Shown: positions 11,521-52,600 of the stretch, piece by piece | Layout: each line of letters opens with the position of its first letter | How positions within the stretch are numbered: position 1 is the first letter of the stretch | Assembly (NCBI GenBank): GCA_022829145.1 | Contig: CM040765.1 | Coordinates: 17,389,792 to 17,453,791 of the forward strand | Length of the DNA stretch: 64,000 nucleotides | Direction: 5' to 3' | From: Albula goreensis | Taxonomy: Eukaryota > Chordata > Actinopteri > Albuliformes > Albulidae | Made by a program: the position numbers and the translations under genes | Notes under the pieces: generated by a model | What the model was told of the DNA's origin: nothing | The model's database searches: none | What the model saw: the letters and a program-made list of their open reading frames with translations, nothing else

Positions 11521-12004
11521 GGATATTCTGCTCCGAGTCATCAGATAGGTGTCTGTCGGAGCCGTGCCAGAACGGGGCGACATGCGTGGACACGATGGAT
11601 GACTACGTCTGCATCTGTCCACGGGGGGCGGAGCCTCCACTCTACATGGGGAAGGACTGCGACCAGCCGTATGACGGCTGCGTGTTCGCAGACTGCCCAG
11701 AATGCACCAGCACGCCGGGGACCCGCCAGTACCACTGCGCCTGCCCTCGCGGCTTCGCCGGCCCCAACTGCACGCTCAACATCGACGACTGCGAGAGCGC
11801 GCCCTGCGAGGGGGCGGGGCCCCAGACCATCTGCGTGGATGGGATCGACGCCCACTTCTGTATCTGCCCACCGGGATTGACTGGTGACGACTGCGAGGCG
11901 GAAGTGCAGGACTGCTCGGCGGAGCCATGCCTGAATAATGGCACATGCATCGCCCGGCCTGATGGGTTCGGGTGTGACTGCCCTCCAGGTTTCCGTGGAG
12001 ACAG
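11521..12004 (+). CDS. crb2: crb2 coding exon: EGF repeats 1-4
   Basis: Acceptor TTCTCTGCAG ends at 11520; donor GTGATG starts at 12005. The exon starts with two bases completing a codon and ends 'GAC AG', joined to 'G TGT GAA' of the next exon. It encodes four EGF-like modules with six-cysteine spacing (starting [14 protein letters not shown], then [19 protein letters not shown] and VQDCSAEPC). Module 2 is short and atypical, with CPEC between the first cysteines. Confidence 0.93.
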
Positions 12005-15000
12005 GTGATGACATGTTTTGTGGCTAGCTACAGAAACAGCATTAACAAAGTACCTGTTAATTAGTTTTCTAACCAAAATGCAACTGTAAAATGGTCGCAT
12101 TTGAAACATTCTGAAAGTGCCAACTACTAATTGTTTGTTCAAGTCACCTGGAAATAAGAGAATTAACTCATTAGGCTGTTAAATTAGGCTCTGCACTGTG
12201 GACAGTGGTGCTTTCTTTTCATCACATGACAATGATTTTCTGTTTGATTTTACAGGTGTGAAGAGGACGTGGACGAGTGCCTCTCACGGCCGTGCCGGAA
12301 CGGCGCCATCTGCCTGGACGGGCCAGGCCGGTACCGCTGCTTCTGTGTGCCGGGGTTCCAGGGCTACAACTGTGAGATCGACATCAATGAATGCGCCTCG
12401 CACCCCTGTGAAAACAATGCCACCTGTGTCAACGAGAAGGACCGCTACATCTGCGAATGCCTGCTGGGGTATTCCGGTAAGCGTGCGCTGGTGTGGCGTC
12501 GGTTTACACCTTCCTGAGTCAGGCAGTGCGACTGTCATTGTAACGTTGACCCCAAGGAAAAATTCTTTAGGGGCTGTACCTAGTGCTTGTCTATAATCGG
12601 GGCTCCCTGGTGGTGGAATGAGCTTACTGCAGTAGCTAGTGTAGCAGAATCATTAGCTAGACAGAAAAAGAACCTCCACTTTTACTAAATTGAGCTTAAT
12701 ACATGAATAGAACGCTTGTACTGCCAAACGCTGTGTCAAGTGAAACGTATTCAAAACATCATGTGACAAAAATGCGTCCAGCATAATTTTCATCCATCAA
12801 TTCAGCTTATTTCCTGAAAATATGCATTTGCTGGACTGTAAAACCTTTCGTGAGACTGACACTATGCAAGCCTGCTTTTTATCTTCATTATTTTGCTGTA
12901 CTCCCTTGGTAAGGTAATATACAGCAGAGTGAGTGCCGGTCGGGGCGTGGAAAAGTATCCCTGGTATTTGGAGTGGCTTATTAGTCATTAAAAGGTGAAT
13001 AGTGTTGAACGACTAGCATTCTTCAGTGACTATACCTCAAGTGCCAAGCAAGACAAAACCAGAAGCTGGAAGATAAGAGTTTGTTAGCCCTCAAGAGCTC
13101 ACACGGAGACACACAAACAGCTGCGGTGTTTATTTTCAGGTTAACACCAGAAGCTTACTGAGAGCAGGATCCAGAGATGGAAAAGGTTTTAACTGAGGCC
13201 ACTGAACCTGGCACTGACTGCCGCTGTATTTTCTGTGTTACCCGTTGCAACCTGACTCTTAGCTGTCTTAAGCCCCTACGCTTACCTGGCGGAGCATGTT
13301 GTCACCTTGCCAACGAGGACGTCTGGTTATGGCTAATGGATGTCTGTGTGTGGGACTCACATCTGTGACATTGTCTATTCAATTTTATCCCAAAAAAATC
13401 TTGAACAAATATTCCATGTGGGAAACCTACTGCAATTCATGGAAACATTATTTGCAGTATAAATAATGAAATAACACATAGGTTTGAAGTCAAGCCATAT
13501 TACTTTGATAAGGTTTTTATGCTCTCACAGCAGAAAAATGGTCATCACCCTTAGTTTTTATTCACTTCAAACAAATATGAGGGAAAATTTATATGGTTTG
13601 CTTGAAACGGGCTTGACCAGTGGAAGGAAACCGCCAGTGTTGGAATGCAAGTTGAAGCTAGCTGCCCGGCTGTGCTCTCTGGCCAAGTGTTTCTCACAGA
13701 GCCGAAGTTTAAAGTGAGATGACGCTGTTATTTATGGGCTGTGGCTGAACTGGCAGCCAGGCCTGGGGCGAACCAGGGCCAAAGGGATCGGAGCGCTAAT
13801 CTCACGGGTCGTTTCTCCCTGGACACGGGCAGACTGTCAAACTCTGCGCAGACAGGGTCTGCTGATAACACAATCAGGTAACAGAAAGCAGACGGCCCCT
13901 CTCCCATCTGTCTGACAGCTACAGAGATAAGGCAGGTCAGGGTGGGGACTCACAGGGCATGATTGAGTTTGTGAGGTGATCAAGTCAAGTGTGTGTGCCT
14001 GTTCAACACAAGTTAAACCTGCAGACACTGTGGCCCTCCAGGACTGGAGTTAAACCCCTGAGGCCCCAGGACTGGGAGTTAAACCTAGACATGGCCCTCC
14101 AGGACTCTTGAGGCCCTCCAGGACTGGAGTTTACACTGTGGCCCTCCAATGTTAAACCTGCAGACACTTGGCCCTCCAGGAATAGTTTGCCAGGTCAGGA
14201 CTGTTAAACCTGCAGACACTGTGGCCCTCCAGGGCGGGAGTTTAATCCAGACACTGTGCCCTCAAGTTTAACAGGACTCTTTGGCTGTTTAAAATGGCAT
14301 TGGGAATGCTTTGCAAATTCATGTTCTAGAGGCAGAGTTCCACAATTCAAGTCCAGGACTGATGCATTACTGGATACTCTGCAGGTCTTAGGTAATGGCT
14401 AGCTTTAGTTTAGTGGCCTGTTCTCATCTTTATATACTCTTAGCATTTCTATGAACAAGTGAAGAGTATGTTCATCCTTTCATACATACAACTCCGTTTC
14501 CCCCTGCGTGACAGAGTGAAGAGTGTGTTCATCCTTTCACTTTTTCACCCCTCTGTCCTCCCCCCGTTCTGTGTGTGAAGGGGTGAACTGCGAGGTGGAG
14601 ATAGATGAGTGTGATTCGGGTCCATGCCAGAATGGAGCCACCTGCCATGACTGGGTTGGGCAGTACACCTGTGAGTGTCCACCTGGGTTCGAGGGCATGG
14701 ACTGCGAGATCAACATTGATGAGTGCGCCAGCGGCCCCTGCCTGAATGAGGGCACCTGTGTCGACCTGGTGGATGGGTACGGAACCTCACCTGTGCATAT
14801 GTACACCTGTGCACCTGTAGCTACCTAGTGAACTGGTACAAAACCTCACTGATACACGTATAAGCATGTACACCTGTCATGACTGAATGGACAGGTACAG
14901 AACATCACCTATGTACACATGTCTACCTAGTTGAACACATGAACACCTGTACATCTGTAAAGCAGAGTATTCATTCATTTTGTTTAATCATTAATTTCAG

Positions 15001-15641
15001 TATTCATTCATTTATGTGATACACACACAAATTTTGCCACTGAACTCTGACTGTTGTTTGATCTCCACTATATTATTGCCTACCTTTAAACACCAGGAGA
15101 GGGCACTGTTGTATGACTGGCCTTAAAGCAGTCTCAAACATTTATTGTAGACATACAGAGGATAAAGTGGAGTATTGAGGTATCATATTTGATTAATTGT
15201 GAGCTACATGATAAATTTGTGTTATATTGGGTTAATAATGCATCTATCTATATCCTAAATCACTTATGTAAAAGTCCAAAAATGATGATATAAGAATAAA
15301 TTGTATACATGTTTTTCTGAAAGCCCATCCATCTTCCCTTTCATTCTAGTAGAGTTAGCCCTTCTGCCCTTATGTAATCTCACTGCGCGTGAATCATGCT
15401 GCAGGTACGAGTGTGACTGCAGCGATACGGGGTTCACTGGGGAGCACTGCGAGGAGGACATCCCTGAGTGCGCCTCGAACCCCTGCCTCAACGGCGCCAC
15501 CTGTGTGGAGGGAGTGAAACTGTACACCTGCGTCTGCTGGCCAGGTAGCTGCACATTGCCACTCTCAACACCACTGAGCTGGATATAGATGAGTGTGTGT
15601 GTGTGTGTGTGTGTGTGATTGTGTGTGTGGTGGATATAGAT

Positions 15642-15684
<43 letters not shown>

Positions 15685-18600
15685 TGTGTGTGTGTTGTTT
15701 GTGTGTGTGTGTGAGGTGGATATAGATGTGTGTGTGTGTGTGTGTGTGTGTGATTTGTGTGTGTGTGTGTGTGTGTGGTGTATGTGTGTGATTTATGTGT
15801 ATGTATGTATTCTCCAGGGTACGAGGGGATGCACTGTGAGGTGGACATAGATGAGTGTATGGACGGGCCCTGTGAGAATGGAGGGCTCTGCATCCAGCGC
15901 TCTGATAAGCAGCACTACGGCGAGATGCCCAAGCGAGAGTGGGAGTTCTACGCCTACGCCGCAGGGTACCTGTGCCAGTGCCAGCCAGGGTATACAGGTG
16001 AGTCAGTGTACCTGTGCCAGTGCCAGCCAGGGTATACAGGTGAGTCAGTGTACCTGTGCTAGTGCCAGCCAGGGTATACAGGTGAGTCAGTGTACCTCTT
16101 TAAGTGCCAGTATGAGTACACAGTTGAGTGTTTTTACCACTGCTAACTTAACTGTGAAATCCTGGGTATACAGGTGAGTCTGCGCACATGTGCCAGTGCT
16201 CTTACTTGCCTTTTTGATCACGACAGGGGAAAACTGTTCTATGGACATCGACGAGTGTGGCTCCGCCCCCTGCCAAAATGGAGGCAGCTGTGAGGACCAG
16301 ATCAATGCCTACACTTGCACCTGCATGCCTGGATTCACAGGTGAGAGGAGCCCTCTCTTAAACAGTGCTGATACCCTACAGTGGTGGTGGGAGGATGAGG
16401 TTTCATATATACTGGCCTCAAAATCTTCTAGCATGGGTTGCTAGTGGGTAATGCTAGGTAGCTTAGTTTAGTGCAGGATGGGAAGAAGTGAGTCATGGAA
16501 TTATATGGTAGCCCACAATGATGGATAAAACTTAGGTTATGGGAATGACAATGCAAATTTTAGAAAATTTTACCTTGGTTTGTTGCCACACCTTTGTGTC
16601 TCTTTGCAGGTGCTGACTGTGAGGTGAATGTGGATGAGTGTGAGAGCGCCCCCTGTCAGAATGGAGGGCTTTGTGAGGACAACGTGGCTGGCTACACCTG
16701 TGTGTGCCCCGATCCTGAGTCCCAGGGGGAGATTCTGCCCTGGGGGGGACGGCACTGTGAGGTTCGGCTTACGGGCTGCCTGGGGCATGCCTGCCAAAAC
16801 GGCGCCACCTGCAGGCCATGGGTGGGAGAGGATGGTCGCCACGGCAGCAACTGCCTCTGCCCGCCGGGGTTCTATGGCGAGTTCTGTGGAACACCCACTA
16901 CCTTCTCCTTCTCTGTGCCGGGATTCGTCCTGCTGGAGCTCCCACCGGCCAATCGCAGCCGCCGGTCGGTGGAGTCAGGCGATGTCAGCGTGAGCCTCAG
17001 GCTTCGCACCACACTGCCAGACATGTTGGTGTTCTTCCGTGGTGACGCCAACAACTTCCTGTCACTGGAGGTGGTGGGTGGTGGCCTATTAGCTAGAGCA
17101 GTGTGGGAAGGTGGAGCTGTAGAGGCGCGGTTCACGGAATTGGTCAGCGATGGGACCTGGCTAGACGTGAGCATGATCACAGCTGAGGGGGCGGGGCTAG
17201 CTCTGGTTCTGAAGGGCGGTGCAGGGTGTGACAGTGATGGTTGCCGTGTGGAGGAGGGTGTGGGAATCATGACCTTTGACCCAGCACCAGGCTCAATGGC
17301 ACGGATGTTTGTGGGCGGGGTGCCAGAGGATTACTTTGACGTCACAGAATCCAAGAGCGGATTTATCGGCTGCATGGAGGATCTGCTGGTGGACGGGCGA
17401 CCCGTTCTGCCCCAGGACCTGCCCCCGGACCAAACCCAGGATGTGCAGATGGGCTGCAGCAAGACTGAGTGGTGCCACCCAGACCCCTGCTCCGGCCAAG
17501 GTCGCTGCGTTGACCTGTGGACCCACTACAGATGCGACTGCCACCGACCGTTTCATGGAGACAGCTGCGCACAGGGTTGGTTTAGTTCCCTTGGTTTGGT
17601 TTGTTCGGTTCAGTTTGTTTTCTTGAATTTGTTTGTTCAGTTTGGTTTGTTTGCCTCGTTTTAAAATTTTTGTTCTTTTTTATTTTAGTTTGATTTGTTA
17701 AGTTTGATCTGGTTGGTTTGGTTTCTTTGTTTTTTTGTTCATCTTTAGGGTTTTATCTGTTTGGTTTATTTTGTTGGTTTTGCTTGACGCCTCTGTCTCT
17801 TGGTCGTTGTTCTCCCCAGAGTACCCTTCCTGGACGTATGGCCACGAAGGGGCGGAGAGCTTCTCTGCATTCGACGTTCCCGCATACCACGGCTCCAACT
17901 TCAGCGTGTCGCTCTTCCTGCGCACGCTGCAGCAGGACGGGCTGCTGTTCCAGCTCCGCCGCCAGGGGGCGCCGTACCTCAGCCTGTTCCTGCGCATGGG
18001 CCGCGTGCTGGCCGCGGTCGACCCGGAAACTCCCCCGGCAACCGCGCCCGTGTTTGTGGCGGACGGGGAGAAGAGGCTGGTGGAGGTGGAGTTCCAGCAC
18101 GGCCAGGTGTTCTTCCGCCACGATGGGATGAGATACCCGCTGGGTGCGCTGTCTGAGGTGGGGGTGGAGCCAGGGGACCTGGTGTTCCTTGGGGGCTCCC
18201 GGAGGCCGACGACGCTGACCTCCAGGCCTGGGGGGGCCGTTTTAAAGGCTGCCTGCAGGATGTGAGGCTGGCGGGGGCACGGCTGGACCTCGATTCCTGG
18301 AACAGCAGTCTGGAGGAGGCAGAGGAGGAGGGATACCTCCCCAGTGATGCCCAAAATGTGGAGCTCGGCTGCCTGAGTGACGATACCTGCCAGGTAGGGA
18401 GCCCCGCCTCCTCACAGAGCCTGGGCTGACTGTCCAATCAAATGCAATGATCTCTGAACCCTCATTAATAATGTAGGATTCAAAAGGACCAAATCAAATG
18501 CCTTTAAATTCTGGTCCTAAGGGGACAGGGTGTATGCTGGTTCTGTTTTCTCCTAAACTGCAAGAGTTAGACTGGAATTTACCTGTGTGTAAAACTCACC

Positions 18601-21600
18601 TGTGCGTGCCCTGCAGGTGGAGCCGTGTCAGAACGGGGGAGAGTGCACAGTCACCTGGAATGACTTTGTGTGCTCGTGCCCGGTGCAGTTCACGGGCCGC
18701 ACCTGCGAGACCCGAGTGTGGTGCTTCAGCGACCCCTGCGTCATGGGTGGCCGCTGCCGGGACCTGCCGGACGGATACGAGTGTGAGTCCCTCCTGGGGA
18801 TCCGACCCCACAACCTTCTGTGTGCTTATTAGGCCCCTGACCCCATCTCCATCAGCACGATCCCAAATCCTGACCCAATCACCTTCCACACACCTCAACA
18901 GGCCCTGAATCCATGACCTCATACACACTAACCCCTTAACCTGGATACTATGGGCTTTGACCCTGTCACCTTCCTCACACACCCATGGACACTGACCCCA
19001 TAGCCTCCTGAATACTTATGGTCTTTCACTCCATCACGCACACTGATATACACTGACCTTATAACCTTCTGGATACCTACAGGCCCTGATCCTATTGCCA
19101 AATACACACTGACTGGCCCATGAAATAAAACAGAATTATATTAAAAATAAATTAAAAATATTGACAGTGCTGCTTCCCCCCCCTACTTGTCACCCCTCCC
19201 CTCTCCAGGCCTCAGCAACGCTACCTTTGAAAGTGATGCCCTACAGTTCAAAGCAGAGGGTCGTTGGTTGCCCCAGTGACCAGCGTTTCCATGGAGCTGC
19301 GCACACGCACGGCGGAAGGCGTGGTGCTTCGGGCAGAGCTGGGGGCGGAGCTCTTCAGCGTGGGGCTGCAAAACTCCTCCCTGCTGGTGCGTGTCCGCCA
19401 GGCCAACAGCGTGGAGGCGCTGTCTTTGCCAGCCGACGCCCCGTCGCCGATGGCAACTGGCACCGTGTGCGTGTCTCCATGGTGGATGCGCCCCATCAGG
19501 GGGCTGGCTCGACCCCCTCGTCATTTTCATCACCCTGGGTGATTACTGTGGATGGTTGGAGCGAAGGCACTAGCCACGCCCCCTTCAGTAGCCTAGACTT
19601 CCTGGGGTCAGCACCAGTTTTGGTTGCTGAAGAGTTTGTGGGTTGCCTAGGCAATGTGCGGGTAGGAGGGATCTACCTGCCATTCGTGGATGATGGACAG
19701 CCCCCTCAGCCATTCAGATTCATCCGTGTGGACGAGGGAAAGGAGGTGCAGCTGGGGTGCATGGGACATCCCGTTTGCCTGTCCCAGCCCTGCCAGAACG
19801 AGGGCACCTGCCTGGACCTCTTCAACCAGCTGAGCTGCTCGTGTGCTCCTGGCTGGGAGGGGCCTTTCTGCGAGCATGACACAGACGACTGCGCAGCCCA
19901 GCCCTGCCTGCGTGGGGTCTGCGCAGACCTGCTGGCCGGCTTCCGCTGCGACTGCCCGAAGGGTTACGTGGGCGACCGCTGTGAGGTGGACGTGGACGAC
20001 TGCGAGGGACACGCATGCCAAAACGGCGCCAGCTGCCTGGATGGGGTGGATCTGTACACCTGTGTCTGCCCACCTGACTTCACCGGACCACTCTGCCAGT
20101 GAGTGTAACTGAAGCAGGGGTGTCTGTAAATTAATGAATTGCATCGACAGCAGGGCTTCACCCCAGTCCAGAGGGCCACAGTGTCTGCAGTGTCTGCCCC
20201 ATCCACACTTCTGATTTCACTGACTATATCGCCTCCTGGACCAAGGAGGTGAATTAATATGTGAAATCAGAAGCTGGTAGTGTGTTGTCAGGGTGAATGC
20301 CTACAGAAACTGCAGCCCTTAGGTATGCTTTGTAAGCAATAAACCCCAGTGGTCTGTGCGGTTATATGAAAATGAATCCTGACAGTTCAAAGCTGAGCTT
20401 TTTTTCAAACAGCAGAACTTCCTGGCATAGTTTTCTCCTTATAAATTGGCTAGCTGCCACAGAAATAATTCAACACTCAAATGCAAATGACAACATACAA
20501 TGCTCAAAGCAAAATTATTGTAACATTGTACTGTTGTTGTTATATTTTTTGCCATTATTTCCAGCTGTAAGGAAAGTGTTCAGCTGAAACAGAATGAGAA
20601 TTTACTTGGAGAGGTGGGTTTGACGCATTCTGACAGCAACGTTGGGGAGAGTGTCATTCTCTGTCTGTCCACCAGGTGGCCATACCCACCCCTGAGGTGT
20701 GAGGAGGACGTTCAGTGCGAAAATGGTGGCATCTGTAGGGATGAGCTCTGGGGGGCAAACTGCACCTGTCGGCCCGGATACGCAGGTGACAGGTGAGCTA
20801 ACCGATAAATTCTGGATCCAGTCATGTAGTCACTGACTGAAAGTCACTAAAATATTTGTGTGCGTCCATGTCTCCCAGGTGTGAGGTAGAGGCAGACGAG
20901 TGTGCGTCGAATCCGTGTCGAAATGGAGGGACCTGCCTGGATCGGTTTAACAGGTTCCAGTGTGTGTGTTCCCCTGGATTCATCGGCCGCCAGTGCGAGA
21001 ACAGCGTAAGGCACAACCTGCACAGCACACTCCTCCATTCACTGCTCTAATCTTCCTCTCCCTCCCATCTTACCTCTTTTCCTCCTTCTCTGTTTCTTTC
21101 CCTTCTTCTCTGTTCTGCTTTCAGCTGTCTTCTCCTCTCCACTTTGCCCCCTCTCTCTCTCCTCTCTTTTTCTTTATGGTTCAGTTGTTCGGGTTTTGTA
21201 ATGAATAATCAATTAGTATTTAGCTGAATGAGTAAATCATTTTGGGAATTGTTGCAGTGGGGTGTGTCATCAATTCTAGCATGTTGCTCTTGTAGTGTGA
21301 ATTGACATGGTAGCACAGGTTCACAGGTTAGCCTTATTTGGCCCTCATGGTGATATTTTGGTGGTTTGTGCCTTGCAGAAATGGGAGCAGAGGGATCGTA
21401 TCCCCTGGCTGGTGGTGGCGGTGCCGCTCGGCTGCTGCTGCGTGCTGCTGGCGGTCATCGGCCTGATCGTCATGGTGATGACGGCGCGAAAGAAGCGGCA
21501 GTCTGAGGGCACGTACAGCCCCAGCCAGCAGGAGGTGGCCGGAGCGCGGTTAGAGATGGACAGCATGCTCAAGGTCCCCCCGGAGGAGCGGCTTATCTGA
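11521..21600 (+). CDS. crb2: Crumbs homolog 2 (apical polarity protein), 13 exons, 5' end missing
   Basis: Type I membrane protein of the apical Crumbs complex, which sets epithelial and photoreceptor polarity with Pals1 and Patj. Coding exons: 11521-12004, 12256-12476, 14581-14776, 15405-15544, 15818-15997, 16227-16340, 16610-17575, 17820-18393, 18617-18782, 19209-20098, 20676-20792, 20879-21005, 21379-21600. All junctions are GT/AG and phases agree. About 1465 residues are visible (human CRB2 has about 1285). Order: thirteen EGF modules, many with Ca-binding (I/V)DEC starts; laminin G 1; EGF; laminin G 2; two EGF; laminin G 3; about five EGF; transmembrane helix (about 1402-1428); 37-residue tail. 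The tail has the FERM-binding GTYSPS and ends in the PDZ ligand ERLI, nearly identical to mammalian CRB2. The signal-peptide exon is absent. Three one-base losses break laminin G 2 and 3 (18,230; 19,258; 19,439), probably consensus errors. Paralogue a or b is not resolved. Confidence 0.96.
12256..12476 (+). CDS. crb2: crb2 coding exon: EGF repeats 5-6
   Basis: Acceptor GATTTTACAG; donor GTAAGC at 12477. It encodes [15 protein letters not shown] and [15 protein letters not shown], both with the D/N-x-D/N-E start of calcium-binding EGF modules. Confidence 0.94.
14018..14285 (-). repeat. Irregular array of the 37-bp 'CCTCCAGGACTGGAGT' unit
   Basis: Within the large crb2 intron. Repeated blocks 'GGCCCTCCAGGACTGGAGTT' and 'TTAAACCTGCAGACACTG' recur at roughly 37-bp spacing with gaps. 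The unit is the reverse complement of that in the array at 59,546. It is likely derived from a non-autonomous transposon common in fish; the class cannot be fixed from sequence alone. Confidence 0.7.
14581..14776 (+). CDS. crb2: crb2 coding exon: EGF repeat 7 and start of 8
   Basis: Acceptor GTGTGTGAAG; donor GTACGG at 14777. It encodes [19 protein letters not shown] and the following [15 protein letters not shown]. Split codons at both ends agree with neighbours (TCC G|GG, GAT GG|G). Confidence 0.93.
15405..15544 (+). CDS. crb2: crb2 coding exon: end of EGF 8 and most of EGF 9
   Basis: Acceptor CATGCTGCAG; donor GTAGCT at 15545. It encodes [20 protein letters not shown] and [16 protein letters not shown], ending CVCWPG. 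The CWPG end is also present in mammalian CRB2. Confidence 0.94.
15576..15800 (+). repeat. TG-rich tract containing EGF-like relic starts, abutting an acceptor
   Basis: Interrupted (TG)n over about 200 bp ends 18-40 bases before the acceptor at 15,817. Three times the run is preceded by 'TGGATATAGATG(AG)TGTG' (near 15,580, 15,630 and 15,717), which resembles the coding start GTGGACATAGATGAGTGT of the next exon. Confidence 0.85.
15818..15997 (+). CDS. crb2: crb2 coding exon: EGF repeat 10 with long loop
   Basis: Acceptor TATTCTCCAG; donor TATACAG|GTGAGT at 15998. It encodes [18 protein letters not shown] and a module with an enlarged loop ([20 protein letters not shown]), as in mammalian CRB2, ending CQCQPGYTG. 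The donor region is repeated in tandem downstream (see the 42-bp repeat). I chose the first donor because it joins directly to 'GG GAA AAC TGT' of the next exon with a normal EGF length. Confidence 0.9.
15966..16110 (+). repeat. 42-bp tandem repeat carrying copies of an exon end and its splice donor
   Basis: Copies start at 15966, 16008 and 16050 with a degraded fourth at 16092. The unit contains the coding end CCAGCCAGGGTATACAG and the donor GTGAGTCAGTG. The period equals 14 codons. Copies 1 and 2 are nearly identical; copy 3 has an in-frame TAG (CTGTGCTAG). Confidence 0.95.
16227..16340 (+). CDS. crb2: crb2 coding exon: EGF repeat 11
   Basis: Acceptor ATCACGACAG; donor GTGAGA at 16341. It encodes [20 protein letters not shown] through CTCMPGFTG, a single calcium-binding-type EGF module with symmetrical phase-1 ends. 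Confidence 0.95.
16610..17575 (+). CDS. crb2: crb2 coding exon: EGF 12-13, laminin G 1, EGF 14
   Basis: Acceptor TCTCTTTGCAG; donor GTTGGT at 17576, a weak GT donor, required because the next exon restores CAQ-EYPSW in frame. The exon encodes [30 protein letters not shown], a laminin G domain from about [10 protein letters not shown] to QMGCSK, then [20 protein letters not shown], a segment strongly conserved with mammalian CRB2. Confidence 0.93.
17820..18393 (+). CDS. crb2: crb2 coding exon: laminin G 2, with one-base loss
   Basis: Acceptor TTCTCCCCAG; donor GTAGGG at 18394. It encodes [18 protein letters not shown] and a laminin G fold. The frame breaks at the run of seven G at 18230-18236. 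Downstream frame +1 resumes [20 protein letters not shown] and ends CLSDDTCQ, in phase with the next exon only if one base is added. Likely consensus error. Confidence 0.9.
18617..18782 (+). CDS. crb2: crb2 coding exon: EGF pair between laminin G 2 and 3
   Basis: Acceptor TGCCCTGCAG; donor GTGAGT at 18783. It encodes [19 protein letters not shown], close to the mammalian TWNDFHC segment, then [20 protein letters not shown], ending in a split Cys codon. Confidence 0.94.
19209..20098 (+). CDS. crb2: crb2 coding exon: laminin G 3 and EGF repeats, with two one-base losses
   Basis: Acceptor CCTCTCCAG; donor GTGAGT at 20099. The frame starts [17 protein letters not shown], breaks at GGG 19258-19260, continues in another frame as [20 protein letters not shown], breaks again at CCCC 19439-19442 and resumes [16 protein letters not shown]. 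One added base at each place gives a complete laminin G domain followed by three EGF modules ([40 protein letters not shown]). Confidence 0.9.
20676..20792 (+). CDS. crb2: crb2 coding exon: WPYPPLRC linker and EGF
   Basis: Acceptor TGTCCACCAG; donor GTGAGC at 20793. Joined to the previous exon it reads [20 protein letters not shown] and ends [10 protein letters not shown]. Confidence 0.92.
20879..21005 (+). CDS. crb2: crb2 coding exon: last EGF repeat
   Basis: Acceptor CATGTCTCCCAG; donor GTAAGG at 21006. It encodes [20 protein letters not shown] and ends [10 protein letters not shown], in phase 0. Confidence 0.94.
21379..21600 (+). CDS. crb2: crb2 last coding exon: transmembrane helix and cytoplasmic tail
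   Basis: Acceptor TGCCTTGCAG. It encodes KWEQRDRIP, a hydrophobic helix starting WLVVAVPLG, then [20 protein letters not shown] and the end VPPEERLI followed by TGA (21598-21600). The juxtamembrane FERM-binding motif and the C-terminal PDZ ligand ERLI are the hallmarks of Crumbs proteins and bind Epb41l5/moesin and Pals1. Confidence 0.98.
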
Positions 21601-22526
21601 GACACCACACCCCGACACCCACCCTCGGCCCTGCCCCTGACCGCTCAGAAAAAACGACACTGATTACTGCTCTTCTACTGCACCTAAACCTTGTGGCTGT
21701 GTGGGGATGCATGAGTTTGAGTTGTGTTAAAACTCAAGACTTCTTCAAGGTGAGTTTTGGCTCATTTGAGGGTCAAATCCCCATGGGGTGTGGCCTATGT
21801 GCTTTTACACTCTGATTACACTGGACAGGCCCCGCCTTCATGACTGTGCTGTGGGAGGGGCCAAGAGACTGACTCATTTCCTGACCAGTGAGGTCAGACC
21901 AAATAATCACCCATCAAACTTGGTATGTGGGCGTGGCTAAGAGAGTGACAGATGTGGTGACCAATGAGCCCAGTTGATGGGAATACATTACAACATCAAG
22001 GTACCCAGGCAGGGATAGGACTCTGACTTTAAATGATGAATCAAGGGGACCGGCTGCTAAGGTCACAACTGAATTTTTCCCTTGGACTTGAGCACAAAAT
22101 TCTGACCTGTATGAAGGGGCGGGGCCTCATCATCAGGTGGGAGGAGCAAGGGCGGGGCTCATTGCCTTGGGCATTGGAGATTGGACATGCACTCTGGGGT
22201 GGCTGGACAAATGAACACTGTCCTGCCCTGACACCCAAATCTTTCAGCCAGTGTTTATGAGCCTGGAGCTGGTGTTTCATTTTCCTTTGTGAGGTAAGCA
22301 TGTGGGGGCGGGGCAGTGATAATCCTTGGCTGGCCAGCAGGGAGCCCCACCCACCCCTTCCTGGCAGAGTCCAGCTCCAGTGCTCGAAACGGAGTCTGAA
22401 GCTGAAGACTGCCTCTTATGCAGCCTGTCTGACAATCTCTCTTTTTCTCTATTTGTTTTTCCACTTGGTTTTTTTTTGCTTTGGTTTGTAATATTGTACA
22501 GTATCTGTATATCATGTTCATGTGTA

Positions 22527-22527
<1 letters not shown>

Positions 22528-22561
<34 letters not shown>
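22528..22561. repeat. (TG)n microsatellite
   Basis: About 15 TG units in probable crb2 3'UTR. Confidence 0.9.
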
Positions 22562-22562
<1 letters not shown>

Positions 22563-23738
22563 CCTAATACGTAGTGTTCTAACGTGTGTTTAGTCATGAA
22601 AGGAAATGACAAGTCAGTAGAACTGCAGAAGTAAACCTCCATGAAGGGAGGAGCACGTGCCGGGTCTCACCTCGGGCTGCCGCTGTCTGTGCAGGTAAAT
22701 CAGTGTTTAGATTTCTGTTCACAGCTTTACAGTAAAACAGAAAAGCAACGAACTGACACCTTCACGTAGACTGTGAGGCACAAGGTCACACCCCCTTCTT
22801 CCCTCAAACTGACTGTGTATAGGAGCATTTAAAACTGTAATGGGTTTCCTGTTAAAATGTAGCCAAAATGTGATTGTAAATGGTAGCTTGGGGTCACTAG
22901 GCTCATATGGACCTATTCTAAAATATGAATCTTCTTGTACCCATGTGGGCACATGACCGAGTTTCTTCAATTAACAGTCAGGGGCACATATTAACTTTGG
23001 TAAAGATAAACTGTGTTCACACATTACTTTTGATAAAGGCTTATGGTGGAAACTTTATGTGCTGAGTGCTGGCTATAAGAGTTTAAAAAAAATGTAGTTC
23101 CCTTTTGGATATCTGATAACTATCTGTCCTGTCTACCTCAGCTCATGCTTCTATGGTTACTGTATCTATGGTTACTTCAGAGTGATAGCTATGTCGATGT
23201 CACGTTTCACTTAAGGTTTGAAAAGTAGAACAGCACTGGAACTATGTGAGATACTGTATTTTTACCTATTTTATTTTTATCTAGTTCATGAGGAAGTGTT
23301 TTTATTTTTTCTTGTTATTGTCAACTTTTCGTCATAAATGTTGAGTAAATTGTTACAATACCGTGGGAGCTGTCAACCGTCTGTGTAACTGTAGCTCAGC
23401 TGAAAAACAAGAGTGGTATGATGTTAAAGCTACTGAAGCAGGGCGGGCGTTCATTAAAACTTCTTTAACGACCAGCAAACAAAGGAGGTTCCTCGAAAAC
23501 TGGAAGAGATTTAACTTGAGATTTGGTTCTGAGAACCACATAATGAGAGCATTTCCCAGAGAGTGTTTGGACAATTCAGTACTTCTTGGCCAGAGAAAAT
23601 GTACACAAACTAACGTTAAAAAAAGACAAGGTGTTTAATGCGTGGAAAGTGCTTGTTTGGTAAAATGCAGGAAGCCTTCCTGACCAAGATCCTATCACAC
23701 AACAGCATGTTCTGGATTGTTTTCACACTTTTCAGTTA

Positions 23739-23744
23739 AATAAA
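23739..23744 (+). terminator. Candidate polyadenylation signal of crb2
   Basis: AATAAA in TTAAATAAAAGAC, about 2.1 kb after the crb2 stop. Position is plausible for a long 3'UTR, but nothing else proves its use. Confidence 0.35.
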
Positions 23745-24229
23745 AGACAAAGGTAAATTTACACGCCTGCCGTTGCCTCAAAAGAAGTGATATGAGCACT
23801 TGTAAATGCAATGCTTATGTTTTCCTGGATGGGATTTTCTCCCCGATAGTCCGGGTGGAATTAAGATGGAGGATAATCTTCTTAAAGACATGCTTCAACA
23901 TATTGGCAATTAAGCCCTTTTGTCCCTGACCAAGAACAGAGTAACAGAGTCTACATTTATTCATGTTGCACATCTTTTAGAAAGTCTTTGACAGATGTGG
24001 GTTTTATAAGAAACAGAAAAACTCCATACATTCAATTTACATGCAGGGAACCTGAAAAATGTACATTTAAACAATGTTTATCCAAACCTTCAGGAAGTGT
24101 GCTGGGAACCAAAAATGTTTGTTGGACAGTTTATAGCACAACAGTGCAGCCACTCTGATCTAATTGTAAACAGAGTTTTGGTAGCAGGTGGAGGGACACT
24201 AAGCGTGAACACACTTCTGAAAGTTCACA

Positions 24230-24235
24230 TTTATT
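24230..24235 (-). terminator. Candidate polyadenylation signal of dennd1a
   Basis: TTTATT on the plus strand, AATAAA on the minus strand, about 1.08 kb after the dennd1a stop. Tentative. Confidence 0.25.
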
Positions 24236-24506
24236 GGACATATTCTGGTGGAGAGGTAAACATTGCTGATGAACAATACTACAAACATATATTTGAGATA
24301 TTAAGAAACACTTCAAGTCTTTGGCAGCTTATAGATGTGGAAAAAACTGCAGATTCCATTCTTGCAATACATATGAGTCCATCACACTTCATGCAATTTG
24401 TTTCCAAAACACACATACTGTAATAGTGGTGGGTTATTGTGGTGTATTTTCAGTCAGCAACTACTGTAGGCCTTGGAAGTAAGATGTGTGGAGTGTTTTG
24501 CCAATC

Positions 24507-24576
24507 AATTACCAGGACTGGAGTTTAAACCTACAGACATTATAGTCCTCCAGGACTGGAGTTTAACCTGTGGTTC
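24507..24576 (-). repeat. Two copies of the 37-bp 'CTCCAGGACTGGAGTTTAA' unit
   Basis: 'ACCAGGACTGGAGTTTAAAC' and 'TCCAGGACTGGAGTTTAACC' about 37 bases apart, the same family and orientation as the array at 14.0 kb. Confidence 0.7.
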
Positions 24577-25309
24577 TAAAGGCAAGTGTCTGAAATAAAG
24601 GCTGAGCCTCTTCTGCCCTCTGCTGGTGCCAGGACAAACTGCAGCTCACATAAATACAAACCAATCCACAGCACTGATCTGAGATCTTTTTTTTCCTGGG
24701 AGAAGACTGTAGTTCCAGGCAGTTGGGAATAGAACACTGTAGTGAGGTTTGAAATTCAAATTCAAATTCTAATATGAAGACTGTTATGGCAGTGCTGATG
24801 CAGCAAACCCATATCCTTAACAAACTAAATGCATTCACTCATAAAACCAGCATTTTCAGTTTTTTGGCAATTAGTTTTACAAAGCAAAATTCCCTGTGAT
24901 CTTCAAGTTTGGCAAAATAAACTTTTTGACAGGTTTTTCATTCATAGAATGGATCACAGAATTGACTTGTCGATATGAGCTGAAGAAACCTGATCCTAGA
25001 ACATCACTCCTACTTATGTTTTATCACCGTTTATGAATACAATCCCTGGAGTGACTTCTGATTGCCTAAGCATGGTATCTACCATATTGCTTTGCACTGT
25101 GCTTGCCGTCCATGGTCCATAGACCAGATGACAGAAGGATGAATGGCAGTGATTTTAAACATTTTTGGGTGCAAATTCTTGCAACCTACTGGAACAAAAG
25201 CAGGGAGGATAAACAGTGTGTTTGAGTCTGTAATAAAGCTTGGCTCACTGACTTTTCCCAGAATGCCCCGGGCTGGTGTTTGTGACCCCCCATCCATGCA
25301 GGGCATGGG

Positions 25310-25840
25310 TCAGTCAAAAGTCTCCCATTGCCTGGTTTTGGGCGGAGCCGCCAGCTTGCTCAGGTCCAGCAGGTCCCCAAACGGGTCCCGGGTCTCTGGG
25401 GGTGCCCTGCTCTGGGGCGCCTTCGCCCGGATCAGCCCAGGGAAGGCGGAGCTCTGCAGGGGGAGGCCACTGTGTTTGAGAGGGGCTGAAGGTAAGCAGG
25501 GTTGGTGATTGTGGTTCAATGGTGCGAATGCGGCGGCGGCGGGGGTGAAAAGTCTCTGGGGCGGGCCAGGAGGGGTGTAGTTTCCATGGGGCCGTCCCAC
25601 TGGGATGTGGTTAGAGCTCTGAGCAAATGGAGGGACAGGAATGCGGGTGACTGTGAGAGGGCCCAGGGGTCTCGGGCACAAAGCAGGAGCAGTGGGCGCT
25701 GGGGGCGGAGCTTCTGTACCGGGTGCTCCACTTAGGGGGTCCAGCAAACTGAGCAGATCCGTGCTCCCGTTGCTAACGGCAACAGGATCGGTGATGTCAG
25801 CATTGGTGGGGAGTGGGAGCAAGTTGGGCCCCCCAGAAAC
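25310..25840 (-). CDS. dennd1a: dennd1a last coding exon: proline-rich adaptor-binding tail
   Basis: Acceptor CCTACCACAG (minus strand) and stop TGA at 25312-25310. The exon encodes [18 protein letters not shown], the clathrin-box-like LLSLLDPL, a Pro/Ala-rich spacer, then [10 protein letters not shown] and the final RQWETFD, aligning with the mammalian ARDPFEDLL and KQWETFE ends. Confidence 0.95.
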   Translation of the reverse strand, partial: VSGGPNLLPLPTNADITDPVAVSNGSTDLLSLLDPLSGAPGTEAPPPAPTAPALCPRPLGPLTVTRIPVPPFAQSSNHIPVGRPHGNYTPPGPPQRLFTPAAAAFAPLNHNHQPCLPSAPLKHSGLPLQSSAFPGLIRAKAPQSRAPPETRDPFGDLLDLSKLAAPPKTRQWETFD

Positions 25841-28800
25841 CTGTGGTAGGGACAGAGTCAAGAAAAGCCAACAAAATACAAGCAAATGTTTTTTCAAAAA
25901 CTTAAAACATTTTACCAGGCAGCTTAACATTTCATTGTCCTATTTCCTACCCTTTCATTTTCTAAACACAAGCAGGAATCAATTCAGTAAATGACCTGAA
26001 ATTCAGCTAATGAATGTAAAAATAGATTTTTAAATCAATTAATTGGTTTGGCATGCAGATAACCCCAGTCCTTTTTAAAATATTACAACCAATTAAATTG
26101 TTACTATACTGTATGTGCGAACAGTGACAACTCTGACCTGGTGTGTGGAGTTGGCCTGTGCCTCCACACTGCCCCCCACTGGCTGGATGTCCACCAGGCT
26201 CTTGGGCAGCAAGTTGACAGATGGGCTCTCTGGCTCCCCCTGCAGGCTCCAGAAGATATCACCTAGAAGGTCCACTCTCTGTGCCCTTTCCGTCATGTCG
26301 CTAGGTGGTGTCCTGGGGCTAGACTTCGCACCCTCATCCTCCTGGAGGTTCCTCACCCTGTACAAGCTCCGCCTCCTTCTGTGACCTGGAGGACACACAC
26401 ATGCCAGTTATTCTCTCTGTGATTGGATGAGTATGAATGGAGGGATGAGGGGGAGAGAGAGAAAGAGCCAGAGAGAGGGATGAGGGAAGAAAAACAGTGA
26501 GAGGGAGATGGAAACTTTGGGTAGGCGGAGAGAAGGAGATCAGGGTTCTTACTGCTCTGGGCCATTGCTCTCCTGCTCCATGTTTCTCTGGGGATTCTGC
26601 ACCAGCAGCTGAGGAGGGAGGGGGCGCTGGAGACCACAACACAACCCAGTCACACACACAACGTTCATCTACAAGCTCACTATTTCTTAGTATTTTTCAT
26701 AGTACAGGCTCCTAATTTAAAGCATCTGAATAATTCAAATGCTGTTTCAATGAAAATTGTCACTCTCACCAGAGTGGTGCACAGACACACTCATATCCTG
26801 CTCATCCCCTAAACTCAAACCCACCTGCCGAAACTGCTCTCTCATTGGCTGCTGCTGGTCACATGACTGTGAGTCCTTCCTGCTCTGTTGTTGGCTGTCT
26901 TTTGTTGTGGAGTAACCATTCTCCTGCAAGTCCTGATTGGATATAAAAGGTAATTCACTTTATTGCAAGCATGGCTTAGTGGAAGGTATGTGACAGGGTT
27001 AATTACATATTAACAGGGAACTGCAAAGGAAAGACTATACAAATCTGAGTGACCTTTTGTTTCAGTCGATTCTTCACTTCTTTGATCCCCATTCTTGCGT
27101 GATCCTTTGCCTGTGAAAAGAGTGCACAGGTGAGGTCATGCTTCCCTGCGACCAACCAAAGAGAAGCTGCTGGCATCAAATGATCATTAAAACACTGGAA
27201 ATCATGAACACATACAGCCACATAACATACATATGTCTCTGACAGGGTCAAAACAGAACTGGAGCTAAAATGATGACACTGCACACATATGTTACACAGT
27301 AGAAACAGGAAGTGGATGCAGTATGAGTGCAAAAACTGTTTATACCCCTTTTTCTTAACTTATTTTTGAAATCACTCCCTAAATGATCCACAACATGAGC
27401 CCCAGAATCCCCGCACTCACAAACTTGTAGACATTCTTCATGGCTGGGTTGGCCCTGGTTTTCACCGTGTTAAATATTGCACCTCCACCTTTCTGTGGGA
27501 CACAGAGGGAGGTTAGGGAAGTCAGAACAGGGAGGCGTGTCTGAAACACACCCTTCATTTGATTGGGCCCCTGAGCCAATGTGCCTGTGGGCGTTACCTT
27601 GACTGTGGAGAGCCATTGGTGGTAGCTTTTATCACTTCCTGTAGAGGGACAAATAACAGCATTTGTCATGAAATCATGTGACATGCATGTTCATTGAAGA
27701 CCAACTGGCACTCTTCAAAAGAGGAGGAAAAACACGGGACTCACCTGCGTACTCGCCAGCGTTTATCTCCTCCTCGAAGGCGTCACTGAAGCCTTTCCCA
27801 GAATTCAGCAGGTCCAAGCGGCCGTCTATGAACTGCAGGAACGCAGAGGTACAGAACAGCCATCCTCACCACTGATCACATGACCACACACTGGAGCGTC
27901 ATGCCATCTCCTGCTGAACTAAAAGTCCTGTGCAAGTGTGTGTGTGAGTGTCTGTGTTTGTGTGTGTGAGTGTGTGTGTGTGAATGTGTGTGTGAGTGCG
28001 TGTGTGTGAATGTGTGTGTGAGTGTCTGTGTTCGTGTGTGTGCATGTGTGTGCGAGTGTCTGTGTGTGTGTGTTTTGTGTTGTGTGCGAGTGTGAATGCG
28101 TGTGTGTTTGCGTGTGTGTGCATGTGTGTGCGTGTCTGTGTGAATGCGTGTGTTCGTAGTGTGTGTTTGTGTGTGTGCGTGTGCATGTGCGACTGTGAAT
28201 GCGTGTGTTCGTGTGTGTCTGTTCGTGTGTGAGTGTCTGTGCGTTTGTGTTTGTGTGTGTCGTATCGTACCTGTTTAAAAGCTGCAGCTGAATGGCGTTC
28301 TGCAGGAAGTGTCTCATGGTGCTGGAACGATGCGACACAAAGACCTCCTTGTCGAACGTGATCAGCTCCCCCTAAATAATGTATCCAGAAACACAGACAG
28401 GTCACAGACTGCCTGGCATGGGATCTCTCCAAAACCTGCAGGTGAGGCGTTTTAGAAAGCTTTGGCTGTGATGAGCAGAGAACATAAGAGCTCTCATCCC
28501 TCTTGCCACACAAAGGTAAGCTGGGTGTGTATTTGTGAGTTTGTATAACATTGGGGCTTGTGTGCTTCTTGTGTTTTGTGGATGCATTATTACACTTTAC
28601 AGAACCTTATTTATGGGATTTATTTTACATTTCATTGGTGATAAATAAGGATTTTATTTCTGAAACTGTGAACTTTCAAAATGTATGACAATTAAATTTT
28701 CAATGCTGTTGTCAAAAGAGCAGCCAGTGAAATCTATGATAGGATGATGAGAAGAACAAGCACTACCCTGTCAAACCACTAGGTGGCTCTGTTTTGCCAG

Positions 28801-31685: not shown

Positions 31686-34600
31686 CACACACACACACAC
31701 ACGTACACACACACACACACATACACATAAACACGTACACACACTCTCACACACACACTCACACACTCACTCACACACACACACACACACGTCACACACA
31801 CTCTCACACACACACACACACACATAAACACGTACACACACACACACACACATACACACACACACACACAATGAAAAAGGCCATGGGGACTCATGCTCCA
31901 CTGCCCTGGGAGTCTGAACACAAAGCAGCAAAAGCAATCAAGCTTCTACTTCTCCAAGCTCTAAAACTATTATTACCAATGCAAAAGCCCAAACAATATC
32001 ACTTCCCATTTACAAAACACCTCCGAAAAACAGACGAAGGGGCATGCTGAAGCACGGTTGCTAAGAAACACAAACTCTGTCTAATATGATCACAGAGGGA
32101 ACGTTACTAATTCAAAAGACGCATAAGCTAACGGTACACCAGAAAGGCGGATCATTTGAAAAAACGATATGGAAATACTTATAACAATATAAAAAGAGAG
32201 GTGGAGTGAGAATATAATAATTAGCTTTGTGGCTCCACCCCTTTGCCTTAAACATCTAATTAACACAGAGGCAGTCGCTCTGCTGGGGGTGACAGCCACA
32301 ACCGATCGTCTGGTTTTTATTTAAACGTATGCAAACACATGCAAATGAGGGCCCGGTGGCTCCGTCAGGACAGGCTCAAACTGTCTGAGAATCACTCATT
32401 CATAAAAACAGCAGCGCGCGGACCGCTTCCGTTTCCACCCACTTGTTCCTCCCTGCCCCTCTCTGTGATTAATTAGCATAGCTGTGCTAATTCCAGGTTT
32501 CAGGGACTCTGGGGTTTTGTGAAAAGCTTGAGCAAAAAAAAATTCAAGATTAAAAAAGATTTGGGTAGTCTCTGGGGAGAATGAAGCCAAGACTTGCAAT
32601 GCAGTTATGAGTAATTTGAGAGCCATACGTAAATAAAAATTAAATCTTCATCTCTCTTTTTTAAAAAATAAAAAATAAAAAGCAATATCTGGCTCTGCTG
32701 GGACGCTGGTAGTTTTTTGTCAGGCAACAGGGCCATACATGCATGCGCTCTCGCTTTGGGCCATGAAACATTTTAAACTGAACCAGAAAAAAACTGAAGT
32801 AATACTGCCCACTCCAAGTGGCGGCAGAACAGGTGGGGTCCAATCAAAGTACAGGTGATGCAGACACCTGCCCATTGAAACAGGGCAGATGCTGTCCAAT
32901 CACAGTGGAGATACATTAGAGAACAGCCAATTACAGTATTCCATACTCACCAGCAGTAGTCAATGAGGTATTGAGGCAGGACTGGGATATAAACATGCTG
33001 CCAGTACATGGGATACAACATGGCCGCTGACCCATGGATGCAGGAGGTTAACTGAAAACCACACACACAAACACACACACAACCAAAAAAATCTTAGAAC
33101 ACATGAGTTGAATATCTGGTGTAAATATGGACTGTTTGGCAAAACATTTGGGGCCAGCTGACTCACTCCTACTGGAAAATTCATGTGCAACAATGGCTCA
33201 GAAGTTTAAAACTGACCCCCATCACATGACAGGGGTGCAGAAGAGAGAGTGGAGCTAACCGTCCATCACATGACAGGGGTGAGGCTTTACTCACAGTGCT
33301 GAGCCTGGAACAGCAGATGAGGATTCGGCGTTCAAACAGCATGCTGGCATACAGGTGGAGGATGTTATTGATATCACTGCTACGAAATACTCTTTCAGGC
33401 TCCTCTGTGAAAGACAGACAGACAGACAGACAGACAGACACACAGACAGAGAGAGAGAGATTTGCAGGTAAGAAAGGTGTCAGTGATAGGAAAGTTAAGC
33501 TTTAGATCCTTGACGAGACAGGAAAATGGGGGTACTCACGTTTTCAGGAATGCTCGGGAGTTTTTTGATGTCCGGCACAATGAAGTGGGAATGCTTAAAG
33601 GCAGAGGAGGCAGAGAGGAGAAGGTGTTGGTATTAACTGATTTGCATTCACTTTGGTGCAATAAAGTTTTAAATTTAACAACAACAACAATGATACTTTA
33701 GAGGCAACACACTGCTGAAAGTTACATGTTAAAGTCAGATAAATCCTCCCACAACCAAATAAGCAGGAGTGAGGGAGAGGAGGGGTAAAAAGAAAGGGAG
33801 GAAGAGAGATGGAGGGATGCAAAGAGGGAAGATGTATACAGGACTGAAAAATGGAAAACATGAAAAAGATGGAGGGATGGAGAGAGGGGAGGAGGGTGCG
33901 TGGGGACAGACTCACCACGCTGAGATGAACGGGCACCCTGGCTCAGGGATCGAGAGAGTGTACAACGTCTCCAACAGCTCCCTCTGCTGGTGAACCTGAC
34001 AGCACAAGCAAGCACACACATACAAACATGACTCAAACTAGTGACAACAAAATATGGGACGACAGGAATTCAGTTTCAATACAGTGTCACATATTCACTC
34101 ACATGTGCTAACAGTAGCTTACCTGTTCACTCACCTGGGCTAACAAGAGCACACCTGTTCACTCACCTGGGCTAACAGCAGCACACCTGTTCACTCACCT
34201 GGCTTTTGATGGAGTAATCTGAGAGGACATGGAGGAGCTTGTAGAACACTTCAAACCAGGGGAGGTAGCTGAGCAGGAGAGAAATGACATTCACTTTACA
34301 TGCTACAGCAGTCAGGACCAGGGGTGAGACACTATGTAAATAACACCGGTACAGTACAGGGTGATTCAATGATACAACTGACTGTATGAAGCAAAGACAG
34401 GGTAGAGAGAGAGGGAAAGAGGTATAGGAGGAGGGAAAGAAAAAAGAGGAGAGAGAGGAAGAGCGAGACAGAGGGGTGGAGAGTATGAGAAGAAAATCAT
34501 AAACAATTCATTCATTATGTACAGATTACTGAATCAATTGCTGCATTTGGTAAGGTAATGCCATTTGTTTTACAAAATAATCAAATCACAAGTTCAGTAT

Positions 34601-49647: not shown

Positions 49648-52600
49648 GTAAGCGAGAGCTCCAACTTGCAGGCGCGTGGGAGACCGTACACGCTTTGACT
49701 GCAACGTCTGTTAAGGAAAAACAACTCAAACATATATTCTGCATAATTAAATTTATCATACATAATAGCTTTCACTGTAAAATGTCCAATGTTAATTTAA
49801 CACTATCAGTGTCTATATTGCTCTGTTATGGAAGCGTTGTTAATATTAAATTAACATGCAGTATTTCATGATATGTTGTTACATTTATTTATTCGGAGAA
49901 AACTGTTTCATGCACTCAGCTGGCTTAACTGAAAAGTACAGATTCACATGTCAGCAATGTTAGTTTACAAAAACTCTATCATCAAAGTTCCATTCCAGCA
50001 ACCTCAATCCTCAATTTACAAAAAAGCTTTTGAATGCAGACTTATTCCAAAATGGACGATGGATGCATCATTTTCAAGTTTTACAACTACACGAGCTATT
50101 TTTTTTTCAGTCTCTGCAGCCAAATTCGCACTACAATCCTGTTCAGAGAAGATTTAGTTTGATAGGTTATAGATAAAAATACTACATAGAAAATAATTGG
50201 TTTTGAAAGCTTTGTTTTTGTGTTTTTATTGAATACCTTTTTTATTTGAGGTCGATTACCTAATCATTGCGCCCGTTTTACTGCTAAAGTTTTATCATCC
50301 TGGCCTAAATTATATGTTGAGTAATCGTATATTAACAGGCCCCGTGTTTCATGGCAACATTATTGAAAAATAAATTTAGGTTGTTCATTTCGCCTAATGC
50401 AGAGGTCAGTCTGAAAACACAAAATCTCTAAGCTACAGAATAGGCAAACGTGGCTACGGTTTGATTTATCACTGATCAAGCAAACAAATTGTTATTTGTT
50501 TCAATCTTCTGAAAAATAATGGGGCCACGTTTAACCTTTTTCAGACATGACCTTGCTCTTGATTGTTATTTGTGCTTGGGCTAGTTACAGGAATGATTTA
50601 GTCTTACTTACTTTTTACAAGGTATTTATTGTCTTATTAATAGTTCCATGGATGGCTAGTTACTGTAATAAATAACAGTTTTGTTTTATTTCGTATTCAG
50701 ATCATTGCACATTGTTTTATAAAATGTTTCACATTGTTTTATTTTTATATAATTCTTTGGAAAACTTCTAAAACTTTTCAACCTCGTCTCTGTTCGGTAA
50801 ATCATCTCACGCCATGTGAGGCTCTCGCCATGTGAGTGCTTACCATGTCCCACTGTTTTACTTCATTTGGAGGTAATCAAACTGTTGGAATTTAATTCAG
50901 AACGCCAGTACTTTGGTTTATTCTCATGTGAACCTGATTTTTTTCCTTTGCATTAATTGTGTTTTATACTCGCAATAGGTTTGTGTCAATATAAATACTG
51001 TGTCAGTATAAATATAACCTACATTAGGCTATATGATCTCTTGGAGACCACAGTAAAGACAACAGCTCGTCTATAATCGATATCTACTTTTTGGTTTAGC
51101 CTTATGTGTTTATTTAACTTGCTCTATCATTTGCCTTTTTCATTTGGGAGTGTACATATAATTTTATATGACCTCTCGCTTTCACCAACAAATAAAAACA
51201 TTTCCGTATATTATCGCCTGAAATTTGTTTATCATTTTATGTATCTCTTAATTATTGCATAGAATGAATTTCAGACTGACAGATAGTTCGCTGTTGCCTG
51301 CCTTTTCAGAACACAGCCACATTCGGCAGCGACAGCGAAGCTCTGTGCGCCGGCTGCGGTGGAAGGATTGCCGACCGTTACTACCTGCTCGCGGTGGACA
51401 AACAGTGGCACATGCGCTGTCTGAGATGCAGCGAATGCAAACACAACCTGGAGTCCGAGCTCACCTGCTTCAGTAAAGACGGAGGCATTTACTGCAAGGA
51501 AGACTACTACAGGTAAACACGTCCCGCAGCTGTAATGATAATTGTATATTTGAATTGCCTGTAAATGATAATTGTATGTATGAATTGCCCATACTGGAAT
51601 TGTTATTATGCCTGCTACATGCATTTACTGATGACAACTTAAATGGCAGGTACGTTTTCAAAGGTTTCTGAATGTCCCAAACGTCCACCATGTTGAGAAG
51701 TTACCAGAATGCAGTAAACATCTTGGCTTGTGTTATGTGTTCACTGTCCTCTCTCTTGCCCAGGCGTTTCTCAGTGCAGAGATGCGCCCGGTGTCATCTC
51801 GGCATTTCGGCCTCGGAGATGGTGATGCGAGCGCGGGATTTGGTGTACCACCTTGGCTGCTTCACCTGCACGGCCTGCAACAAACTGCTGAACACCGGAG
51901 ACCACTTTGGCATGAAGGACGGGCTGGTCTACTGCCGGCTTCACTTCGAAACCCTGCTGGAGGGGGAGTATCAGACGCACTTTAGTCACGCAGATATAGG
52001 GACGGGCAAAGCTGGGGTACTCAGCTCAGTGGCGGCCGGCTCAGTGGGACTGAACCACTGCAGCGGTGCAGGCAGCGTACAGAAGGGGAGGCCGAGGAAG
52101 AGAAAAGGGCCTGGAGCCGCAGCAGACCTGGTGGCTTACAACACAGGTAGGACCCCATCTCAGCCATTCTCTGAGGTGCACTAGGCAGCAGTTAGGCAAC
52201 TCTACCTCTGCAAGTTGGATTCCTACTTGCTCCACTGCTGTTGTTCCACTCAGGCAGTCAATTAACCTGAATTGCTTCAATATATATCCATCTGTAAAAT
52301 TATTATGTGTATAAAAAGTTACAGTCTGGATAACTGTATCTGCTAGATGTCAATTGAGAGGAATACACCCGGGGAAATACAGATATCACTCAAAGAAATG
52401 TAATATGTTACACACGTTCTAAGAAATGGAGGGGGAACACAGCACAACACTTCCTTCCATGTGCTGGTAAGAGTTAAGGCTAAACTGTGAAGACGAAGGA
52501 GAGGTTGAGTTCCGTGCCTGCGTTCCCATTCTCACAGTCTGCCCGCAGTGGCAGATGGGAACGCCCACGGAGGAGGTGACAGCTCAGGAGCCTCGATTTT

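Follow-up and report, generated by a model that had tools for sequence, protein, structure and literature searches.

Behind exon 6 of dennd1a in Albula goreensis, one 5′ splice site (donor) occurs three times in tandem, and the locus raises the question of how this repetition arose and which of the repeated donors the gene would use. The window analysed, meaning the whole stretch of DNA examined, is 64 kb long. Within it, dennd1a is encoded on the minus strand and lies between crb2 and lhx2, both of which are on the plus strand. Identification of dennd1a came from a phmmer match to the solved human DENND1A structure 6EKK, and the gene was also aligned as 17 blocks against the human DENND1A sequence. 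LIM and homeodomain matches identified lhx2, for which five blocks were aligned against the human LHX2 sequence. The crb2 candidate has EGF and laminin-G domain matches; these domains, together with gene order, give the name that we take it to have.

TRF placed an array at 34094–34202 with a period of 32, 3.4 copies, 89% matches and a score of 169. Read on the minus strand, the array has a 32-bp unit that begins CCAG/GTGAGTGAACAGGT (the slash marks the splice position) and occurs three times between 34202 and 34107, followed by a diverged, partial fourth copy (Table 1). Each unit reads CCAGGTGAGTGAACAGGT at its start and TTAGC at its end, and corresponds to the final 4 exon 6 bases followed by the first 28 of intron 6. 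The 18-mer CCAGGTGAGTGAACAGGT has exactly three exact matches in the window, spaced 32 bases apart; allowing up to three mismatches recovers only the same three, where 0.09 were expected and 0 of 100 shuffles gave at least three. The array described in the earlier note, three donors 32 bases apart with a decayed fourth, is confirmed. The three donors were called near-perfect in that note; the first 18 bases of the three copies are in fact identical. Pairwise identity among the copies is 28–30 of 32 bases, all differences being confined to unit columns 19, 20, 24 and 25. Copy 4 matches the unit at 18 of 32 bases overall and at 14 of 18 across its first part; only 4 of 127,964 window positions match the start of the unit that well, copies 1–3 being three of them. 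Because such matches are so rare in the window, we regard the partial copy as real; it could be the remains of an old copy or a similar stretch from which slippage began. The copies lie head to tail and the unit falls within roughly 10–100 bases, as in minisatellites. Local tandem duplication across the exon 6 donor, also proposed previously, is supported. Rfam, searched at curated cut-offs, gave no matches.

Table 1. Coordinates of the 32-bp array and the adjoining dennd1a exons within the window.
Feature	Positions	Strand	Remarks
dennd1a exon 6, aligned part (23 residues)	34199..34267	-	6EKK and 3TW8 matched by phmmer; aligned in blocks to human DENND1A
Copy 1 of 32-bp unit	34171..34202	-	donor 1 at 34198 (CAG/GTGAGT); weak in-frame CAG/GTGTGC at 34186; in-frame TAG in intronic part
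Copy 2	34139..34170	-	donor 2 at 34166 (CAG/GTGAGT); weak CAG/GTGTGC at 34154
Copy 3	34107..34138	-	donor 3 at 34134 (CAG/GTGAGT); strong CAG/GTAAGC at 34122
Partial diverged copy 4	34087..34106	-	weak CAT/GTGAGT at 34102; 14/18 bases of unit start; end of copy judged by eye
dennd1a exon 7, 80 bases	33916..33995	-	one base short of frame vs 6EKK

When donor 1, whose first intron base is 34198, is joined to 33995, the 43-residue product aligns without a gap to residues 101–144 of 6EKK. Because this product matches DENND1A without a gap, donor 1 is well supported as the ancestral junction, the one predicted to give the conserved protein. The exon 7 acceptor had been placed correctly, with 33996 as the last intron base, and the expectation of an in-frame stop for donors 2 and 3 also held: a TAG follows SEQVCCC in the read-through frame. 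We scored candidate donors with an approximate frequency table and with U1 pairing, and seven sites scored at least 3. The three repeated donors, at 34198, 34166 and 34134, reach the table maximum of 8.75 with a U1 pairing of −13.3 kcal/mol. Additionally, there are four further donor-like sites: a strong one at 34122, +76 (score 7.32, −11.5 kcal/mol), and weak ones at 34186 and 34154 (4.68, −7.2 kcal/mol) and at 34102 (4.91, −6.9 kcal/mol). The earlier note had overlooked the +76 site and the one at +12, 34186. All five listed sites from +32 onward run into the TAG after SEQVCCC, and only the +12 site at 34186 stays in frame, where it would add VSEQ. Depending on the candidate donor, intron 6 would measure from 203 down to 107 bases. 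A single exon is followed here by three CAG/GTGAGT and one CAG/GTAAGC consensus donors, the arrangement of a tandem donor.

Since donors 1–3 are equal in score and in U1 pairing, sequence alone gives donor 1 no advantage. Predicted folding of the RNA from exon 6 to exon 7 also lent donor 1 no support, donor 2 being the most open with a mean unpaired value of 0.49, against 0.19 for donor 1 and 0.20 for donor 3. Two published systems bear on the choice. In a designed reporter library, splicing went mostly to the first of two tandem 5′ sites when each matched the consensus (PMC6783452, section 7); in a human MSH6 allele in which 74 bp spanning a donor are duplicated, the transcripts reported either use the second donor or lack the exon (PMC9818763). 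We gave the reporter set, the larger of the two, and the conservation of the protein more weight than the MSH6 allele and the folding, and on that basis donor 1 is most likely the donor used, with the other copies probably remaining in the intron as near-neutral decoys. Because the unit is mostly intronic, the extra copies would be harmless if donor 1 wins.

The repeat itself is a matter of direct observation. To account for it, we think it likely that a short minisatellite formed over the exon 6 donor by local tandem duplication, with donor 1 ancestral and preferred and copies 2 and 3 spliced out with the intron. Slippage or unequal exchange would have duplicated the 32-bp segment. As the published reporter data suggest, donor 1 would then be preferred in the cell and copies 2 and 3 would leave with the intron, while any use of donors 2 and 3 would be expected to yield stop-containing, decay-prone transcripts. 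Such transcripts could instead be the point of the arrangement: under regulated unproductive splicing, a substantial share of transcripts would be spliced from donors 2 and 3 or from the strong +76 donor, the stop-containing products would set dennd1a output, and copy number would act as a dial. Three equal donors and a fourth strong one, every downstream one yielding a stop, are what this predicts, and the downstream donor used in MSH6 (PMC9818763) offers a precedent; the preference of reporters for the first site (PMC6783452) speaks against it, and we hold it to be quite improbable. A different function could be read into the plus-strand CACCTG words, as a cluster of transcription-factor (E-box) sites whose resemblance to donors is secondary. 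The three units do contain five CAGGTG/CACCTG words, but CAGGTG is simply the spelling of the exon end plus GTGAGT, and the conserved junction is the one in copy 1, which makes this reading hardly credible.

In line with a minisatellite origin, TRF listed seven further minisatellite-like arrays with comparable periods within the same 64 kb, and three of the eight (in dennd1a, crb2 and lhx2) touch coding sequence. The crb2 array (15962–16129, plus strand, period 42) lies at the end of an EGF exon, its unit comprising 36 bases of exon and 6 of intron. It contains three CAG/GTGAGT donors and a fourth copy without the donor GT; a further CAG/GTGAGT stands beyond it at 16174 (region 15962–16179). 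Copy 2 would lengthen the EGF repeat in frame by 14 residues, while copy 3 holds an in-frame TAG. The TAG in copy 3 and the loss of the GT in copy 4 would follow if the copies downstream were evolving as intron, which favours the minisatellite reading. The two genes had been said to share the same architecture. Both arrays do span a donor, but the likeness is only loose: 4 + 28 bases with period 32 in dennd1a against 36 + 6 bases with period 42 in crb2. In lhx2, the last coding exon contains an in-frame 36-bp tandem repeat at 56560–56646 (plus strand). The arrays at 17577–17652, 51530–51589 and 27935–28260 start 1, 16 and 10 bases, respectively, from a listed donor, the donor beside the first being assumed; on this partly approximate donor list, arrays cluster just past exon ends. 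Exact CAGGTGAGT occurs 10 times on both strands of the window against 0.68 expected, six of these falling within the donor arrays of dennd1a and crb2 and one more 42 bases beyond the crb2 array. We did not use this excess as evidence because GTGAGT is a common donor sequence in this window, found after 8 of the 17 dennd1a exon ends on our list.

Frame was flagged in two of the 17 dennd1a blocks, exon 7 and exon 9 (33295–33404, minus strand), each of which loses one base relative to human DENND1A. Exon 7 loses frame against 6EKK as well, and exon 14 (about 28271–28371, minus strand) seems, by reading, to be one base out of phase. In crb2, three-frame translations appear to switch frame in the laminin-G stretches at about 17700–18420 and 19100–19760 (plus strand). 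No frame break was found within the five aligned lhx2 blocks. These breaks would fit a dennd1a copy that is decaying, so that the array sits in a pseudogene where splicing is irrelevant. Apart from these breaks, however, the reading frame stays open and conservation is good across the 17 blocks, and the two apparent frame switches in crb2 point to sequence errors rather than to the loss of one gene; we judge decay quite unlikely. Residual assembly indels are the simplest and likely reading of the breaks in both genes, gene decay being the alternative. The same apparent single-base breaks could suggest that the copy number of the array, or the differences between its copies, are themselves assembly errors. 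Against this stand the substitutions at four columns and the diverged fourth copy, which simple stutter would not yield, and an assembly origin of the array appears very unlikely. The dennd1a array is real, most likely an ordinary minisatellite across a donor and a known kind of event.

Whether arrays in the window are biased toward donors was assessed with eight arrays chosen by eye from 79 TRF rows (period about 25–60, at least 2 copies, with overlapping rows joined). A GT-rich array at 27935–28260, which starts 10 bases from the donor of exon 14, was left out of the eight and added for nine-array tests. The donor list held 23 donors in the proximity test (17 in dennd1a, 2 in crb2 and 4 in lhx2) and 22 in the first covering test; the crb2 donor at 17576 (AGG/GTTGGT) is assumed, approximate coordinates were used for the lhx2 donors and for 41840, and 51514 is one base off. 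Remaining donors were taken as random positions in 11000–27000, and array placement as uniform. Two of the eight arrays cover a donor at least 4 bases inside, for which P(≥2) is 0.072, 0.097, 0.130 and 0.175 at 30, 37, 45 and 55 assumed donors; without the 4-base margin the count is again two of eight and P is 0.082–0.188. Covering by two of eight arrays is therefore unremarkable under random placement (P 0.07–0.19).

Closeness gave a different picture, at thresholds picked after the array–donor distances had been seen and on a donor list that is partly approximate. By these post hoc thresholds, three of the eight arrays lie within 5 bases of a donor (P 0.010–0.046), four within 20 bases (P 0.0016–0.010) and four within 50 bases (P 0.006–0.031). 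With the GT-rich array added, covering stands at 2/9 (P 0.12–0.28) and, again post hoc, the counts become 3/9 within 5 bases (P 0.022–0.087), 5/9 within 20 bases (P 0.0002–0.004) and 5/9 within 50 bases (P 0.0008–0.014). Because the thresholds are post hoc and self-chosen, one crb2 donor is assumed and some positions are approximate, we treat the 20-base closeness as a weak lead, and there may be some local bias. The proposal that exon–intron boundaries here have been specially caught in duplication is favoured by four of eight arrays within 20 bases (P 0.002–0.01) and not by two of eight covering a donor; it stays alive in a wider form, as closeness and not covering. The same closeness at 20 bases also counts against our preferred account of the exon 6 array, whose position may not be pure chance. 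A broader idea, which we regard as unlikely, is that this lineage gains its short tandem arrays preferentially at 5′ splice sites or immediately downstream of them, and that the number of donor-including copies tunes the share of stop-carrying transcripts, a variable repeat adjusting gene output.

As it stands, the locus is mainly an example of a minisatellite at an exon edge. It also carries a warning, in that a motif scan gives several perfect donors where probably one works. If the downstream donors were used, the array would be a natural test of which identical donor the splicing machinery picks, a choice on which the reporter library (PMC6783452) and the human disease allele (PMC9818763) disagree. 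Should arrays prove to lie close to donors throughout the genome, local duplication would favour exon edges.

Several known systems can be set beside the dennd1a array. Passages in PMC8724738, PMC2883569, PMC7730772 and PMC11718197 had no bearing on donor arrays. In GYNGYN tandem donors (PMC1779574), alternative donors likewise adjoin, although the motif is a few bases long compared with the 32-bp unit. Tandem duplications carrying AGGT have been linked with intron gain in fission yeasts, as multiple 24-bp duplications, and in ATP2A1 (as told in PMC4974935). Similar to these, each short tandem copy in dennd1a carries AGGT; in those cases, duplicated exonic sequence becomes a new intron, whereas in dennd1a an existing donor is repeated within a mostly intronic unit. 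Intron gain by AGGT duplication was rejected for dennd1a, where the unit has only 4 exonic bases and the exon 6/7 junction is gap-free against DENND1A. The designed tandem 5′ sites resemble the array in that donors of equal sequence compete on one transcript, and differ in being an engineered pair in a human cell line (PMC6783452). Like the array, the MSH6 allele c.3936_4001+8dup, a 74-bp tandem duplication across a donor (PMC9818763), has a second identical donor made by tandem duplication over an exon–intron edge; that allele has one extra copy, is mostly exonic and is a disease allele in a pedigree. Lastly, the period of 32, the 3.4 copies and the slight divergence are those of minisatellites generally, with the distinction that the dennd1a array starts 4 bases inside an exon.
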